64,000 bases of DNA from Hyaloraphidium curvatum (Eukaryota; Monoblepharomycota; Hyaloraphidiomycetes; Hyaloraphidiales; Hyaloraphidiaceae), in assembly GCA_025558095.1 (NCBI GenBank), contig JAIVFI010000002.1, forward strand, positions 1 through 64,000. Direction: 5' to 3'. Below the pieces are notes generated by a model. It was not told the DNA's origin. It saw nothing but the letters and a program-made list of their open reading frames with translations, and ran no database searches. The translations under genes and the position numbers were made by a program. Positions 21,943-42,920 of this stretch are shown here, in pieces. Positions within the stretch are counted from its first letter, which is position 1; the number at the start of each line of letters is the position of its first letter.

Positions 21943-22382
21943 ACACGCGTCAAAGCTTGCACTTCTTCGGTGATCCAACAATGCTCGTCGTCGGTCAGTC
22001 CGTCGCCTCCCCTCCTCGGTCATTTTCCGGCACCGCGTCGGCCAATCGGCCATCTGCCTGGCACTCGGCCGACCAGTGCCTCCCGACCCTGCACCTCCCG
22101 CGCCGCATCATCTTCCTCCCTCCCTAGCTCACCCGGCGCACGCCTTGCACCTGTCCCGATCAGCTCGGTCAGTACGTGACCCCGGCTGTCTGTGGAGCGG
22201 GGCTCGAATGCAGACAGTCCGGTCGGAACGACCGAGGAGGCGCTCCTTTGTTCTCCAAGGCGGGTTGGGCACGGAGAGGCAGCCAAAGCGGGCCAATCGT
22301 TGGAAGCAGGGCAGAGATTGGCGGAGCAGAAGGCAAAGGATTGACCGCATTCCACCGCCGATCTCATCTGTTTACACCCGCG
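21943..22382. other. intergenic region
   Basis: 440 bp. An in-frame ATG for the next gene exists at 22176, but the 69 codons from it lack conserved features; treated as promoter and leader. Confidence 0.35.
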
Positions 22383-24656
22383 ATGCTTGGCACGGGCAGC
22401 TGGTCCGAGGCGGGCCGCAAGGCGCGCAAGAAGCAGCTAAAACGGGCGGCGCCCGTGGCGCCGGCGAACCTGCCCTCGGACGTGCTCGTGGACTTTGCCC
22501 TGGCGGCCATCTCCGACTCGGTGCCGAACGACCCCGCCGACCTGCTCATCGTGCGCGGCGACGCGCGCAGCCACTTCTGGCTGGCAGAGATAAAAGGCCA
22601 GCGCCGCGTGCGCCGCGTGTTCGGGTCGGCGCTCCCGCCGCTGCAGCGCGGGCGCGCTTTCCAAATCCGCTGCGACGCGCGCGCCGGGAGGCGCTCGTGC
22701 TCCATGGACTTTGCCGAACGGCGCGTGATCATCGAGGATGCGGTGCTGACGTGGGCCCCGCGCGTGTTTGCGAGGACGGCGTGGGACGGCGAGGTCCCGG
22801 AGCTCGACGTCGACGCGGTGGAGAGCGTGCCGGAGCCGGCACGGCCAACGACCCCGCCTCTGGCCATCGCCGTTGCGCAACCCAGCATTCCCCCGGTGCT
22901 TGCAACCGCAGGGGTGTTTGATGAACTTGCGGAGGACGGTGCAGGCCCGGATTCTGAGGGCGAAACCGAGGCGGACCGCTCGCCCGCGGATCGGAATCGC
23001 GCTCCCGCCGCCGCTGCCGCCCGGAAAAAGGCCGGCAAGTCCAAGAAGAAGGCCAAGGATGCCAAGCAGTCCCCTTCGCCGAACAACGAGCTCGAGGACT
23101 GGGAGCTCCTCGAGCGCGCCGCCAAGGAGGCCGAGGCGGCCCGCGCGGCCAAGGAGAGGGAGGAAGAGGCCGCGCGGATCGCCAAGGAGAAAACAGAGAC
23201 AGTTGCCCGAGCCGAGGCGGCCACCAGCACGGAAGCTAGGCCGCATGACGCGGGGAAGGACTTGGCTGCCGGAGGCGAAAAGGCCAAAGAGGGCCCGGCG
23301 CCGGCTATGGCACCGGCCAGCGTCTACGCGAAGCTGTTTCCGCATTTTGTCGAGGTCAAGGGCATCGATTTCGAGCCCTCGCCTGCGATCATTGGCGTGT
23401 TGGAAGGGGGGGAAGGCTTCCTCACCGCCGCGGAATGCGCCATGTTCCAGCCGGACCCGCCGCCGGACGACGGCGAGGGCGACGAGTGGGCGGACAACTT
23501 CGACGCCGCCGGCTTCTCCGGCTGCATGGACTCCCTGCTCATGGACTACACCGCCAACTTCCTCCCGTCCATGCTGCGAGCACGGGAGGCGGGTCCGGCG
23601 CCCTGGGCGGACGCTCCGCCACGCGCACACCGCGCCAGGAGGGCGCTCCGCCGGGCGTGGGACCTCGTCCGGGCGCTGCTGCGTCCGGGTACGGGCGCGC
23701 CGCCGGAGCGCCTGGCGCCCTTCTTCAGGAACGGGGCGCTGCCCCGCACGGGCATGAAGCCGTGGCACGCCAACCTCCTGCACCGGATCTTCCTGAAGCA
23801 CTACATAGCCATGCGCACGACCGTCACCGCGTTCGCGGACCCGCACGTACGGCAGCGCTGGAGGGCGGTGGATGCCCCGCAGTCGGACAAGGCAGCGCAC
23901 GCCGGGGCCGCGTTCGTCCTCTGCGACTTTTTCCTCCCGGCCTTCAACTACGCCTGCGGCCTCCTCGCGTCGCTCATGTCCTCGCGCCCCGTCGCGGCAC
24001 GCGTGGCCCGGGACCCCAACTTCCTCGACCAGCTCGCCTTTGCCGGTGCCAGCATGGTCGCGATCAAGGCCGCCCCCGGCTTCCACGGCCGCCCCGAGCT
24101 TCCCATCGGGTGGTACACGTGCTCGGACATCCTCAACGCCGTGGACATCTGCTCCCTCGCCGTGGCCGAGAACCGCAACCCGTGGCACCAGACCTCACAC
24201 GGGGCCGTGATCATGGGGCAGCACGTGCCCGCGGAGCTGCTCTACATCAACGCCGGCGCCATCAACGGCGTCTTCGAGCAGGGAGCGTCGCACCCCGGGA
24301 CCGATCCGTCCCGCGGCCCCAGGTTCGCCGCGCGGAGGCTGATCCTGAGCCTCGTGGTGGAGCGGGACGTCGAAAAGAACCCCGTCCTCTCCCTGCGCCG
24401 CGAAGCCCTGAAGGCGTGCATCGCCGCGCGATTGCCGGGCGACGATGCCTGCGACGCGTGTTACAAGCCCGGCCCGCTGTCGACCGTGTGCGGGAACTGC
24501 GGGTTCGGCACCTTCTGCAGCGGCGACTGCCTGCGCGCCGGGTTCGAGGACCACAAGACCGTGTGCAAGCAGATCGGAATGGGGATGATACGCAGCATGC
24601 AGGAGCTCCGCGCGAAGCAGCTGGAGCATAGGAAGCTGATGCCGAAGAAGAGATAG
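22383..24656 (+). CDS. MYND zinc-finger protein with coiled-coil region
   Basis: A single exon encodes 757 residues. The C-terminus carries a MYND finger: CDACYKPG, then CGNCGFGTFCSGDC and a final HKTVC, giving the CxxC...CxxC...CxxC...HxxxC ligand pattern at about 689-731. MYND fingers bind proline-rich peptides in partner proteins. Residues about 205-300 are Lys/Glu/Ala-rich heptad-like sequence likely to form a coiled coil (KKAGKSKKKAKDAK, ELLERAAKEAEAARAAKER). The middle part (VKGIDFEPSP, LHRIFLKHYIAMRTTVTAF, PIGWYTCSDILNAVDIC) is conserved-looking but not recognised. It is one of four MYND genes in this window; all carry the finger at or near the C-terminus on different N-terminal bodies. 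No signal peptide. Confidence 0.8.
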   Translation: MLGTGSWSEAGRKARKKQLKRAAPVAPANLPSDVLVDFALAAISDSVPNDPADLLIVRGDARSHFWLAEIKGQRRVRRVFGSALPPLQRGRAFQIRCDARAGRRSCSMDFAERRVIIEDAVLTWAPRVFARTAWDGEVPELDVDAVESVPEPARPTTPPLAIAVAQPSIPPVLATAGVFDELAEDGAGPDSEGETEADRSPADRNRAPAAAAARKKAGKSKKKAKDAKQSPSPNNELEDWELLERAAKEAEAARAAKEREEEAARIAKEKTETVARAEAATSTEARPHDAGKDLAAGGEKAKEGPAPAMAPASVYAKLFPHFVEVKGIDFEPSPAIIGVLEGGEGFLTAAECAMFQPDPPPDDGEGDEWADNFDAAGFSGCMDSLLMDYTANFLPSMLRAREAGPAPWADAPPRAHRARRALRRAWDLVRALLRPGTGAPPERLAPFFRNGALPRTGMKPWHANLLHRIFLKHYIAMRTTVTAFADPHVRQRWRAVDAPQSDKAAHAGAAFVLCDFFLPAFNYACGLLASLMSSRPVAARVARDPNFLDQLAFAGASMVAIKAAPGFHGRPELPIGWYTCSDILNAVDICSLAVAENRNPWHQTSHGAVIMGQHVPAELLYINAGAINGVFEQGASHPGTDPSRGPRFAARRLILSLVVERDVEKNPVLSLRREALKACIAARLPGDDACDACYKPGPLSTVCGNCGFGTFCSGDCLRAGFEDHKTVCKQIGMGMIRSMQELRAKQLEHRKLMPKKR

Positions 24657-24715: not shown

Positions 24716-26632
24716 TCACGCGTTCCGCATCTCGGGCGGCACGTACCGCAGCCCCAGCTTCTCGAAGAGCCCCTCCTCCGACTCGACCTCGATCCGTTCC
24801 CCCGTGACGCGGTCGAACAGGCCGTGCGAGGCAAAGTGCATCCCATGGAGGCGAGCCCACTCGCGCAGGGAGCGCTGGAAGAGGGTCGAGCCGGACCAGC
24901 CGACGACGGCGACGGGGTAGTTGGCGGGCGGGGTGACGATGAGGTCGAGCTGGCGGAGCTTGCCGCTGGAGGGCTGGCTGAGGACGACGAACGCCTGTGC
25001 GTCATTCCCAGCCGAATGCATCACATGGGAGGTCCATTGTATCCGCGTCGTGGCAACGCACCTTGTCCAGCACGTCAAAGTGCGCCCCGCGAAACGCGCC
25101 CATGCTGCTCGGGTTGACCCACTCCACGACGCCCCGCCCTCCAAACGCCTTCTGGCTCACACTCCTCGCATCCCCGCGCCCCTCCCTTCCCTCGCCGAAG
25201 GTTAGGATGTCCACGAGCACGCCGCGCCGCTCGAGCTGCTTCACGATCCGCCCCAGGAGCCCCGGGACCTCGCCGGCGTCCGGGTGCGTGATGACGACGT
25301 CGACGTCGCCGTTGAGCAGCTTGCCCCTGCGGTACCCGCCGCACACCTCGTGCTCCAGCTTCGGGTCCACGGCATCCAGCGCCTCCCTGACGACAGCGAC
25401 GACCTCGGCCACGTCGTCGCGGTCCATCGGCGCTGAAAAGGCGGAGAAGTAGCGCACCCCCATGTCCTGGCTCGGGTTCAGCCTGATCGCGTTCTCTTCC
25501 GCCGCCCTCGCGATGCCCTCGACGGTCCTGTACCCCCGGTTCCACCACTCCCGCGCCGTGGTCGCCCCCACGCCGTAGATCTTGGCGAAGCAGTCCAGCG
25601 TCTTGAACCTCTCGTCGGTCCTGATCCGCTCGGCCTCCTTCAGCCCGCCCGTCTTGAGCACCTCCCGGATGATGTGCGCGATCTTGGTCCCGATCCCCTT
25701 GACCTTCACGGCCTCGGCCGCCGAGCGGACGCGGCGGGGGTAGCTCCGCAATGCGGCCGCCGCATGCGAGTAGGCGAGGAACGAGGTCTCGTTGCCCTCG
25801 AGGTAGCGCGACCGGGCAATGATGTCGAGCGGCTCGATGAGGTCGTCGTTGGGGCTGGTCAGGGGGTGGAACCGCTGGCATTCGTGCCGCACGTTCGGGT
25901 ACGATGGGTCCAGCGCGGCGCTGCCGTCCTCGGAATCGGTGTCCGTCTCGCCCTCCGACCCGGTGCCGCGTGCCATGGGCGAGGAAGAGCGGGAGCTGAT
26001 GGATGCGGAGCCGAGTGAGAGCCGGGAGGGCGAGGGGGAAGGAGACATGCGGCGGCGTTTGGCCTGGCTCGCCGCCGCGTCGAGCGCCGAGAGGTGTTCC
26101 TTGGCCGCCTGCTTCAGGTCAGGATGCTCGCGGGCCTGTGGGATGGTACGTGGAAGCCTTTCGTCAGCACCTGCGGTTGGTGACAGTCGCCGTTGTATCC
26201 CACCCAACGCCTCACCCTCTCGTCCGCCTCGACCAGCCTCCTGTCCGGCCTGTACTCGTCCGGCACCCCAATCTCGTACGCTGCCGTGTCGAGCAACCTC
26301 CTCTCCCTCACGCAGTCAAACACAAACTCCCTCCTGAGCACCCTCAGATCCGGCTTGTGCTTCGGCACGTACCGTCCGATCCGCCGTGCCGATCCCAGGC
26401 CCGTCAGGAGGTAGTCCGCCCCTGAGTAGTCCGCGTTCTCGGAGAGCAGCACGCCGCCGTGGCGCGGGATCTCGGCGTCGAGGTCCGCGAGCTCCGGGTC
26501 GGGGAGGCCGGCGTCGACGAGGGCAAAGGTGAGGCCGCCGAAAAGGAAGTCGGAGATGTCGAGCGTGAGCTTCGGACGCGGAGAGGAGCTCGGTGGTGGC
26601 GCGCTAGAGGAGCTGCCCGCAACGGAAGCCAT
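24716..26632 (-). CDS. family X DNA polymerase with BRCT domain (pol lambda/Pol4-like)
   Basis: Exons 26216-26632, 25062-26135 and 24716-24994 (introns 80 and 67 nt) give 589 residues, close to human pol lambda. It fills short gaps in base-excision repair and end joining. Order of parts: an N-terminal BRCT domain (FLFGGLTFALVDAG, GGVLLSENADYSGADYLLT, REFVFDCVRERRLLD); a Ser/Pro-rich linker; the 8-kDa lyase-type domain with a helix-hairpin-helix GIGTKIAHIIREVLKTG; a second hairpin FAKIYGVGATTAREWW; palm motif CGGYRRGKLLNGDVDVVI with the metal-binding DVD pair; and, after the last splice, RQLDLIV with the third Asp. The C-terminus ends in GLRYVPPEMRNA, as in pol lambda and beta. A 35-nt alternative for the first intron is possible but less typical. 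Confidence 0.92.
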
Positions 26633-28372: not shown

Positions 28373-29266
28373 TCAGAGCCGCCCCTCGTCCCCGGCCGGG
28401 TTCCTCCGGACGTGCTCCACCAGCTCCTTGTTGACCACCTCGGGCGCCTCGTCCGTCACAAAGTGCCCGACCCCGGCCAGCGGCACGAACCTGTACGCCG
28501 CGGCCACGTGCGCCCCCGTCCCGTGCGCCGCGGTCTTGCCCACCGTCCCGTCCTCCTCGCCCCACAGGTACAGCGTCGGCACCTCGATTATGCCGACCTC
28601 GGTGCCCTTGAGCGCAGCCCCGGCGGCGCGGTACCACCCCAGCGCGGCCTCCATCGCCGCTTCGTTCCCGACAACGGAGAGGTACTCGTCGATCGTCTCC
28701 GCGGGCACCCCCTTGCTCTTGCTGGCCCACTTGGGTCCCAGCAGCTCCCTGATCCTCGCACACCCGTCCTTCACGAGTTCCGGCCCCGCCTCGGGCTTCA
28801 GGAAGGCGGCGTGGTGGCCCGACCGCGTGCGCTGGCCCTCGGCGTCGGCCTGGAACGCGGCGCGGAAGGACAGCGGGTGCGGGCGCGAGAGCACCGTCAG
28901 GGAGGCGAGCCGCGACGGGTGCAGCGAGGCCGCGTGCCACGCGATGGCGCCGCCCCAGTCGATGCCGACGAGGTGGAACCGCCGGCCGGGGGACACGGCG
29001 TCGGCGACGGCGAACACGTCGGCGACCATCTTGTCGACCGTGTAGTTCATGATGTCGGCCGGGTCGGGACGCAGCCCCGGAGAATAGCCGCGCTGGTCGA
29101 CGGCGACGGCGCGGAAACCGGCCGAGGCGAGCGCGGGCAGCTGGCGCTTGAACGCGTGCCGCGACTGCGGGAAGCCGTGCAGCAGGACCACGAGCTCGCC
29201 CGATGCGGGGCCGGCGGCAAACGCCGTCAGCGTGCCGCCGGGAATCGGGATGCCGATGGTTTCCAT
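28373..29266 (-). CDS. epoxide-hydrolase-like alpha/beta hydrolase
   Basis: A single exon encodes 297 residues. The fold is marked by [24 protein letters not shown] and a nucleophile elbow [10 protein letters not shown] in which the nucleophile is Asp103 rather than Ser. An Asp nucleophile with the HGFP oxyanion segment places it with epoxide hydrolases and haloalkane dehalogenases. The acid candidate is in [10 protein letters not shown] and the catalytic His in [13 protein letters not shown]. The cap region contains tyrosine candidates ([19 protein letters not shown]) that in epoxide hydrolases activate the epoxide oxygen. Cytosolic; no targeting peptide. The substrate is not deducible. Confidence 0.85.
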
Positions 29267-29384: not shown

Positions 29385-30318
29385 TCAGCTCCTGGTGGTT
29401 CGATTTGGCTTTGGTGGTGTCACCTAGCCCCGCATCCCCGACGACGACGAGCGAACGACTACGTCGCCGCCGGCCCCGCCACCTTCCCGCGCAGAACCGC
29501 TTGTGCTTCGGCCAATCCCCCCTCTGGCACTCCTCCCCGCAGTAGTACGCAGCCCTGCATGCCCCGCACCTCCTCAACCCCCCCGTCGCCGGGTCCGCCA
29601 CGGTGCCGCAGGCCTGGCAGTACTGCACCAGCATCCCCACGGGCGCCTCCTCCCCCACGTCCCGCTTGCCTGTTCCGATCATGGCGAGGATCACCCTCTG
29701 CGTGCCCGTCTCGTTGTTCACGTCCCCCACGTACCCCAGGTAGCCCTCGCCGACCTTGGCGAACGCGATTGGGGCCTCCCCCTTGTCCGTCACCGGCATA
29801 ACCGGGAACACGCGCGATTCGGTGACGGCCCCCTCGGCGGGCACGTACACGCGCTGGTCGGCCTCGGCCCCGTCTACGTGCAGCGCCTTCATCGAGTACC
29901 GTTCCGGCAGCCCCGGCATGCGGTCGGCAAAGGCGGGGTTGGCCCGGTGCGTGGTCCGCTACGTCCGCGCCGGGGGCGTCGCGATCCTGTGCTGTATGTT
30001 CTCCTCCATGGTGAGGATGGACGCGCTGTCCTCCCTCTTCGGGCGCACCTTCGGGCTGCCGTGGACCAACGGGGATTACATGCTGCCCAGCGCCACGGCG
30101 ACCTTGGAGTTGGCCTTCACCGCAATGCCGCCGTCGGTCACGAGGACGGCGGCAAAGGCGTTGGGCCCCGTGAGCTTTGCGATGGCCGTCGCGGGGGAGG
30201 TCACCTCCACCGGGGAATACGACGCCCGGAGGAGCTGGAGGAAGCCGGCGTACATCGAGTCGAAGAAGCCCTCCTTCTCGAGGCTGATCAGCAGCACGGC
30301 TGGCTTCGATGCGGCCAT
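29385..30318 (-). pseudogene. MYND-finger gene disrupted by an internal inversion
   Basis: The minus strand carries the first part (30318 to about 30088), starting MAASKPAVLLISLEKEGFF and running to VLVTDGGIAVKANSKVAVAL, and the last part (about 29941 to 29385), running from NPAFADRMPGLPERYSMKAL through VGEGYLGYVGDVNNETGTQ to a MYND finger (YCQACG, RRCGACRAAYYCGEEC, HKRFC). Between them lies a segment that on this strand hits a stop at once, but whose plus strand encodes the expected middle of the same protein. This body plus MYND layout is one I know from expanded fungal families in which the middle carries a YVRAGG...FSSF...FGLPW motif. As it stands the gene cannot make the full protein. 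The last splice (29483 to 29391, ending two codons later) is tentative. Confidence 0.75.
29942..30087 (+). other. inverted internal exon segment of the MYND gene
   Basis: Read on the plus strand, these 146 bases give 48 open codons, beginning ARCVVRYVRAGG and ending GLPWTNGDYML. The flanking minus-strand codons end in VAVAL on one side and begin NPAFADR on the other. If the block is turned around, the reading frame runs without interruption through both junctions (146 = 48 codons plus 2 bases, completed by one base of the flank). The flanks share only one or two bases of homology at the breakpoints. Confidence 0.75.
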
Positions 30319-30500
30319 CCCGGTGCGTGCTTCGTCCGACGCGGCTTGGTTGTTTTTTTGCCTAGTTGGGTCAGCGTTGTTTGCGTCCTTAGAGGCCCAT
30401 CTACCGGAATTCCTGACTCTGATTGGTCGCGCCCCCTCGCCGCGCCCCGCAGTCACATTCCCCCTCCTGCGCCTCTCCGCCCCGGGGACCCGCGGCCGCC

Positions 30501-32495
30501 ATGCAGCCGTTCTACTACCTCCTCTTCGGCGCGCTGGCGGCGGTGTGCGTGTACCTCGAGGTGCAGAAGTCGCGCGGCGAGACGTCGGCCGTCACCTCCG
30601 AGGCGTACCGCACGTTCCGCAACAACTACGTCGTCGTCTACGCGCTCATGATGGGTGGGTAACCCCCGAGGGGCGGGGGCGCGGGACGGCGGGCGGGGGG
30701 CGGCGCCACGCGGGCAGCAGGGACGCGCGGCGCAGCGGTTGGGGGGTAACCGCCGAGGCTTGCGCGTCCGGGCGGCCGTTGTCACTGCTCGGTAGTGTGG
30801 TGCGAACGTGCCTGCAGCCGGGGAGGCCTATTTTGGGCCCTCCCGTGCGGCCCACAACAACGCGCCTGGATGCTCGTAACGGTTGGGGCCGCACGGCCCG
30901 GGCCCCGGACGGCATGCAAAGCCGGATCTCATGTTGCGGATCTGTCTCGGGCCCACCAGTTGGCCCGCTGCCGGAATGCGCTGCCATGACGGCCTCTGAC
31001 CACGCTTCCGCCACCCTTGCAGCCGGCGACTGGCTCCAGGGCCCGTACGTCTACGCGCTCTACCAGCACTACGGCTACACCACCGGCGACATCGGCAAGC
31101 TCTTCATCGCCGGCTTCGGCAGCTCGATGGTGTTTGGCACCATCGTCGGCAGTCTCGGCGACCGCTTGTGGGATCCTTCTCCTGTCCTTGCCGAGACCAA
31201 ACTGATCATGTTCCCTCCATCCCCACCTTCCAGCGGCCGCCGCACCGCCTCGATCACCTACTGCGTCACCTACATCCTCTCCTGCTTCACCAAGCACTCC
31301 CCCGCCTACTCGGTCCTCATGGTCGGCCGCCTCCTCGGCGGCATCGCCACCTCGCTGCTCTTCTCGGCCTTCGAATCCTGGCTCGTCGCCGAGCACTTCA
31401 AGCGCGGCTTCGACGCGCAGTGGCTCTCGCTCACCTTCTCGCGCGCCATCTTCGTCGGAAACGGGCTCGTGGCCATCCTCGCGGGGCTGCTGGCCAACTT
31501 CCTCGTCAAGAACATGGAGCTCGGGCCCGTGGTGCCGTTCGACGCCGCCGCGGCGTTTTTGTCGGTCGGGTTCGCCATCATCGTGACCACGTGGCCCGAG
31601 AACTACGGGGACGCGAGCGAGAAGGCCGCCTTCTCGGCGCAGTTCGTCAAGGTGGGGCGACAGGCGCCGGTGGTGAACTCGCGAGAGCTGAACGCATTAC
31701 CATACGCGGTCCACAGGCCTGGCAGACGATCAAGGGCGACCAGCGCATCGCCTCGCTCGGCGCCATCCAGTCGCTCTTCGAGGGCTCCATGTACACCTTC
31801 GTCTTCCTGTGGACCCCCGCCCTCAGCCCCAAGGGCGAGTCCATCCCGCACGGCTTCATCTTTGCCCTCTTCATGCTCGCCTGCATGATCGGCTCCTCGG
31901 TCGCTGCGCGGCTTCTGCTCAAGATCGAGGACGTGCCCGTGGAGTCCTACATGCGCTACGTCTTCGGCTGCGCCTCGCTTTCCCTCTTCGTCCCCGTCGC
32001 GCTGCGCTTCATGGGCATGAACGACGTGGCCGACCCCGCGGGCGGGCTCACCCTGGCCGGGCAGATCCTCCTCCTCGCCTTCCTCTGCTTCGAGGGCTGC
32101 GTGGGCGTCTTCTGGCCGTCGATCATGAAGATGCGCTCCACCTACATCCCAGAGGAGTCGAGGTCGACCATCATGAACTTCTTCCGCATCCCCCTGAACC
32201 TCTTCGTCTGCGTGGTCCTGTACAACGTCTCGGCATTCGAGATCTCGACCATGTTCACCATGTGCGCCGCCTTCCTGGGCGTCGCGGCGGCGCTGCAGCA
32301 CAGGCTGCTGGGGCTGAGCAAGAACCCGCAGCCGCGGAGGTCGATCGCAGGTAACGCTCCCCCGCGGCGCGCGGGGGCCAAGATGTCCTGACGGCCGTTT
32401 GGCGCGCAGACGACTCCGAGGCGTCGCAGAAGCTCACCGACACGGACGAGCTGGGGAGGCCCAAGGAGGAGAAGGAGGCGGGCGAGTCGGCGTGA
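30501..32495 (+). CDS. MFSD5-type major facilitator (molybdate-anion transporter family)
   Basis: Five exons (30501-30654, 31023-31167, 31234-31651, 31717-32350, 32410-32495) give 478 residues. The first intron is long (368 nt); the others are 59-66 nt. The protein starts with a membrane span (FYYLLFGALAAVCVYLEV) and has the MFS_5 family signatures: FRNNYVVVYALMM, then DWLQGPYVYALYQHYGYTTGDIGKLFIAGFGSSM, GSLGDRFGRR completed by the second splice, GRLLGGIATSLLFSAFESWLVAEH, and WPSIMKMRSTYIPEESRSTIMNFFRIPLN in the last third. Relatives import molybdate in algae and animals. About twelve spans are present, and the C-terminal tail is acidic and cytosolic (TDTDELGRPKEEKEAGES). All splices restore conserved sequence. 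Confidence 0.92.
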
Positions 32496-41505: not shown

Positions 41506-41711
41506 TGGTGGGGGACTGCGTGCAGCGGAACCCGTGCGACGCTTGCATCGGCGGATGCTTACAGCGCAACATCGAGTGCGTTGCGTCTGATAGCGAGGCC
41601 GATGATGCACTGCGCGCATCGGGCTGATCTGCTTCCGAGAGTAGCGGGGCGTCAGCGAGTTTCCGCACGGTCGACCAGCTCCAATAGAACAACCACAGGA
41701 AACGGCACGCG

Positions 41712-42920
41712 ATGTCCGTGCCGTTCGTGCCGCCCGTGTTGCCGCCCGGGTCGCCGTGGCGCGGGCTCGACGCGGGCCGGCTCGTGGCGCGCGTGTCCAA
41801 CACGGTGGTGAACCTCGAGACGTGCCACGCCGACTTCTACGGCGCGCTGGACGAGCCCCCGGCGGCGGCGGCCCCGCGCGAGGCCAACGACGCGTACGTC
41901 CGCGCGCTGCGCTACGGCCACTCGGTGCTCGCCGCGCTGCTCGCGCCGCCCGGCACCGACCGCGGGCCGCTCGCGGAGTTCTGCCAGAACGGCGCGGTGC
42001 CAAAGGACGCCGTGCCCGAGGACCTCTTCGCCGCGATCGCGCTGGCCGTGTTCCGCCGATCATTCAAGACGCTGCGGCGCTGCATCGCGGAGTTCGTCGA
42101 CGTCGGCAGGCGCCAGCGCTGGGGCGCCTTCGACCCGTTCGGGTGCGTGGCCGGCGAGCCGCTGCCCACAAAGATGCCCGACAACACGAAGCTGTACAAC
42201 GACTACTTCTACGACCCCGCCAAGCTGGCCAGGCAGATCGCGTACACGCTGGCCCGGGCCCGCCCCGTGCGGAGGCGCATGGCCGACGACTGGTTCTACC
42301 TCGACACGCTCTCCCTGGCGCTGCTCGCCGCACCCGAGGTGTTCCGCGCCGCGTACCTCGGCACCCTTTCCCGGGGGCTGGCCCAGGGGGAGAAGCTCAA
42401 GGAGATCAACAAGGTCGCGGCCGACCTGAGCGACGGCTGGAACGCGCTGCGGCTGCCCGTGGCCGAGAACCCCAGGCCCTGGACCGAGCACCGCCGCCGC
42501 GCCGAGCGGCTGGGGTACTTCCCCTGCGCGGCCATCCTCGCCGAGAACCTGTCCATCTTCGCCGACGACTGCGCCAAGCTGGGCCCGGAATCGCAGGCCT
42601 TTGCCAGGGACGTCGCGCAGCGCACCGACGCCCTCCTCCGCACCCTCGACCTCCCGCGGCGCCCGAACCCGCCCGATCCCAAGCCCATGGAGGACATGGA
42701 GCGGCAGCTGCTGCTGTACGGCGACCTGGCCGACGCCTGCGACGCCTGCGGCAAGAAATCGGACGGGTCGTTCGTGATGAAGCGGTGCGCGAGGTGCAGG
42801 ACCGCGAGGTTCTGCTCCAGGAAGTGCTTCGCGGCGAGCTGGACCTCGGGCTCGCACCCGGAGGTGTGCTACGCCGCGGCGCCGGGGTGGATGCCGGAGA
42901 TGAAGGCGCCTTCGATGTGA
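41712..42920 (+). CDS. MYND zinc-finger protein
   Basis: A single exon encodes 402 residues. A C-terminal MYND finger begins near residue 342: CDACGKK, RCARCRTARFCSRKC, then HPEVC. The 340-residue body is mostly helical in appearance (FRRSFKTLRRCIAEFVDVGRR, DTLSLALLAAPEVFRAAYLGTL, ENLSIFADDCAKLG) with the polar segment DNTKLYNDYFYDPAKLARQIAYTL. I do not recognise the body as a known domain. There is no SET domain and no signal peptide, so a scaffold role through the MYND finger is the simplest inference. The spacing between the last Cys of the third pair and the final His is slightly longer than in the paralogue at 62123. Confidence 0.78.
   Translation: MSVPFVPPVLPPGSPWRGLDAGRLVARVSNTVVNLETCHADFYGALDEPPAAAAPREANDAYVRALRYGHSVLAALLAPPGTDRGPLAEFCQNGAVPKDAVPEDLFAAIALAVFRRSFKTLRRCIAEFVDVGRRQRWGAFDPFGCVAGEPLPTKMPDNTKLYNDYFYDPAKLARQIAYTLARARPVRRRMADDWFYLDTLSLALLAAPEVFRAAYLGTLSRGLAQGEKLKEINKVAADLSDGWNALRLPVAENPRPWTEHRRRAERLGYFPCAAILAENLSIFADDCAKLGPESQAFARDVAQRTDALLRTLDLPRRPNPPDPKPMEDMERQLLLYGDLADACDACGKKSDGSFVMKRCARCRTARFCSRKCFAASWTSGSHPEVCYAAAPGWMPEMKAPSM

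Follow-up and report, generated by a model that had tools for sequence, protein, structure and literature searches.

A short in-place inversion very probably interrupts a MYND zinc-finger gene of Hyaloraphidium curvatum

In the genome of Hyaloraphidium curvatum, a segment of about 146 bp (144–150 bp) has very probably (our own estimate is close to 0.87) been inverted in place in the first half of a single-copy gene with a C-terminal MYND zinc finger. The gene lies within the first 64,000 nucleotides of contig JAIVFI010000002.1 (assembly GCA_025558095.1), the whole stretch of DNA that was analysed and that we call the window. A first-pass annotation had proposed that part of a MYND-finger gene is inverted here, and this proposal is borne out by the restored reading frame, by a match to the family PF01753, by a codon signal that flips strand, and by a scan for such flips. 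From the coding signal, which gives the ancestral state, we infer that the block is flipped relative to the ancestral sequence and lies at the same place. Small inversions are a known and mostly ordinary kind of mutation; the event is thus of a kind already known, and the locus is a clear example of it.

Open reading frames and their translations show that both ends of the protein are encoded on the minus strand, in one frame, whereas 48 codons of its middle are on the plus strand. The N-terminal part (30088–30318, minus strand; 77 codons, MAASKPAVLL...NSKVAVAL) is an open frame that starts at an ATG at 30318 and scores +55.3 bits of codon log-odds. The C-terminal part (29485–29941, minus strand; about 152 codons, starting with NPAFADRMPGLPERYS and counted through the MYND finger) continues in that same minus-strand frame and scores +82.4 bits. 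Between them lies the inverted block (29942–30087, plus strand; 48 codons, ARCVVRYVRAGGVAILCCMFSSMVRMDALSSLFGRTFGLPWTNGDYML), with +27.5 bits on the plus strand versus +2.8 on the minus strand. As assembled, the 77 N-terminal codons are followed by GSM and a TAA (30076–30078, minus strand), a premature stop after 80 residues that is due to the inversion, and a second in-frame stop, TAG, is found within the inverted block (29959–29961, minus strand). When 29942–30087 is turned around again, a single open minus-strand frame runs from the ATG at 30318 to the end of the MYND finger, 278 codons in all. The first-pass annotation had described both this division between strands and the recovery of the frame at the two junctions; the translations, together with the codon log-odds of each part, agree with it on both points. 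The restored protein reads VAVAL-ARCVVRYVRAGG...FGLPWTNGDYML-P-NPAFADR...LPERYS and then enters the MYND finger, with one proline codon spanning the second junction. The finger (29491–29619, minus strand; residues 234–276 of the restored frame) covers positions 1–39 of the 39 in the PF01753 profile (hmmscan E = 1.2e-11, 44.9 bits, above the curated cut-off of 22.7), placing the protein among the MYND zinc-finger proteins. Apart from the two stops described, neither the flanks nor the inverted frame carries any stop or frameshift of its own.

The coding strand thus flips at both ends of the block and re-inversion restores the frame, as expected of a segment reverse-complemented at its own place. 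Since the N-terminal and C-terminal parts share one minus-strand frame, the arrangement fits a simple inversion in which no bases were gained or lost. A search across the genome returned no other copy of the block, which favours an in-place inversion over the insertion of an inverted copy; the latter, also considered, is unlikely for that reason.

Frame continuity alone is weak evidence here: because the DNA is GC-rich, more than 1000 other breakpoint pairs nearby also keep a long frame. We therefore relied on codon log-odds, for which 15 other long frames of the window served as the training set. A preference for the antisense strand as extreme as that of the block was seen in 0.17% of 2357 windows of equal length within trusted genes, those used for training, and its score was reached by none of 5000 dinucleotide shuffles. 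Codon statistics alone, with frame continuity left out, place the best breakpoints at 29946 and 30085–30087. We also scanned for the pattern of a coding flank, a gap with stops that is coding on the other strand, and a second coding flank in the frame of the first, using a grid of lengths that does not include 146. The block was the single match in the 64-kb window (at 29950–30084), and there was none in 188,379 bases from other loci of the same genome, 252 kb having been scanned overall. Two extra matches from a looser version of the scan disappeared once the flanks were required to code better in sense than in antisense.

At the breakpoints, the first-pass annotation had expected little or no homology, and only 3 bp were found: TGG at 29940–29942 and CCA at 30087–30089 (both read on the plus strand) form a 3-bp inverted microhomology. 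Because one is the reverse complement of the other, four inversions (29940–30089, 29941–30088, 29942–30087 and 29943–30086) are indistinguishable and give the same restored sequence; the ends are therefore known to about 3 bp, and the inverted length lies between 144 and 150 bp. An inverted match of at least 3 bp would occur at the breakpoints by chance about 7% of the time, so that TGG/CCA taken alone does not point to microhomology repair. A repeat search of the region revealed no inverted repeats longer than 3 bp at the two breakpoints through which the block could have recombined. The inverted pairs that the region does contain are perfect over at most 10 bp or else imperfect, and none flanks the block as a pair; one of 9 bp (29905–29913 and 30053–30061), away from the breakpoints, has its source in two GLP peptides. 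We also noted an exact direct repeat of 11 bp, CCCGGTGCGTG, at 29943–29953 and 30319–30329 (plus strand), which touches the left breakpoint and adjoins the start codon; we take it as chance.

The repeat content also bears on whether the block might be an error of assembly or consensus, with an intact gene in the real genome. Such an error would agree with the lack of further stops and frameshifts in the flanks and the block, as would be seen in an intact gene. An assembly flip of a block normally requires long inverted repeats at its ends, though, and here the breakpoints share 3 bp and no long inverted repeats flank the block as a pair, which makes this explanation unlikely. The contig, moreover, is 1.3 Mb long and belongs to an assembly of 55 contigs.

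If the inversion is real, two routes could have produced it. Two breaks may have been rejoined with the piece between them flipped (end joining); alternatively, replication may have switched template and back at microhomology. Both would fit, and a single sequence cannot separate them. A programmed or recurrent inversion switch would be expected to have longer flanking inverted repeats than the 3 bp present at this locus. Four kilobases from the inversion, at 25005–26315 (minus strand), lies a frame whose helix-hairpin-helix, fingers and palm domains are those of an X-family DNA polymerase (lambda, for example), a class known for filling gaps in end joining; its position is probably a coincidence.

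Read as assembled, the gene would yield only the 80-residue N-terminal fragment, without the MYND finger. Most likely it is disabled, either as a recently disabled allele or as a pseudogene. With no further stop in the flanks or in the block, the event itself is suggested to be recent. The minus-strand frame continues past the MYND finger with no stop until a TGA at 29229–29227, which lies beyond the start codon (ATG, 29267) of the following minus-strand gene, and the segment 29227–29484 (minus strand) has non-coding codon statistics. As no stop follows soon after the finger, the end of the gene model is uncertain. The segment 29227–29484 may hide a frameshift, a terminal intron or a lost stop, and the gene could have suffered a second lesion there.

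A different outcome would be that the inversion created a new intron: if a GT shortly ahead of the right breakpoint (at 30096 or 30120) were spliced to the AG at 29959, the transcript would lose the whole block and stay in frame. The MYND-finger protein would then still be made, the gene having survived through an inverted piece turned intron. We regard this as quite unlikely. Less probable still is that no inversion took place, and that 30087–29942 is an ordinary minus-strand intron read on the plus strand by chance. The shared frame of the N-terminal and C-terminal parts would suit an intron, and frame-preserving GT...AG pairs do exist, such as 30096–29959 (138 nt) and 30120–29959 (162 nt). 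Such pairs are easily found, though (20 combinations were listed), and the donors, GTGGCG and GTGAAG, look weak. The codon score also argues against it: no open frame in nearby non-coding DNA (the intron 30659–31022 and two intergenic stretches) scored above 3.8 bits, as against the 27.5 bits of the block, a score matched by no shuffle. We can practically dismiss a separate, overlapping plus-strand gene of which the block would be one exon: a plus-strand frame is indeed open from 29744 to 31888, but it crosses intergenic DNA and the intron of a neighbouring transporter gene, and the flanks score lower on the plus than on the minus strand (19.1 vs 82.4 and 26.7 vs 55.3 bits), the weak plus score being the expected shadow of a real minus-strand gene.

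The order of segments after re-inversion may match a fungal MYND family in which YVRAGG...FGLPW precedes LPERYS, as the first-pass annotation had also stated. Searches for a homologue of the N-terminal domain gave nothing in the genome of H. curvatum outside the window, and nothing among viral and prokaryote contigs, PDB, Pfam or NCBIfam, collections nearly without other fungi. Many loci of the same genome match the protein in the MYND finger alone, and in none of these paralogues did we find the N-terminal domain, a GLPW motif or a GYVGDVN motif. Searches with patterns chosen from a bait alignment, built on two fungal-like sequences and not counted as evidence, found nothing. Structure prediction was uninformative: the block alone came out as a single long helix (mean pLDDT 73), and the N-terminal part was modelled with low confidence (59.8) and without a useful fold match. 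We know of no role for this particular gene.

Inversions described in other systems offer partial parallels. Microinversions between human and chimpanzee are 17–33 nt long, and 8 of 59 have flanking inverted repeats of only 3 nt (PMC8755829). Like them, the block appears as a precise in-place reverse complement with a short match at its edges, and its 3-bp TGG/CCA would correspond to the lowest flanking-repeat class of the definite cases (PMC8755829); unlike them, it spans about 146 bp, interrupts a coding frame, and has its ancestral state read from the coding signal and not from a second genome. In genes of Saccharomyces cerevisiae, template-switch inversions affect spacers of 2–5 bp between arms of more than 9 bp, and the gene stays open (PMC8604942). 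Here, too, a segment is inverted inside a fungal coding sequence, but with a block of about 146 bp, arms of 3 bp and a broken gene as the result. The 3.6-kb inversion at the MAT locus of Sclerotinia sclerotiorum, which occurs in every meiotic generation via inverted repeats of 250 bp, is likewise a fungal inversion that truncates a gene (PMC3574095), whereas the block in H. curvatum has no such flanking repeats. Overall, the inversion seems to resemble the human–chimpanzee microinversions in its edge match, and it differs from all three systems in size or consequence.

Gene finders and aligners easily overlook small inversions and report an intron, a gap or a truncated gene in their place. The present one is visible from a single genome because the strand of the coding signal changes sharply at two positions. 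The simple strand-flip scan could be extended to many genomes for an estimate of the rate at which short inversions hit genes. If other strains of this fungus carry the uninverted form, the event could be dated and its effect tested.

The MYND finger itself occurs at more than 100 separate places in the genome (one query listed 139, including two at its own locus), which makes the family a large one for a fungus of 32 Mb. The window holds two more MYND matches, both near the family cut-off, at 22128–24653 and 41688–42917 (plus strand). PF04082, a fungal transcription-factor domain, was matched 74 times in the same genome, which marks it as fungal. Among the MYND or PF04082 matches, some places are paired with equal scores and lengths (C10:47483–47605 with C51:15661–15783, and C25:4796–5410 with C25:28295–28909), which suggests duplicated or unmerged segments of the assembly.
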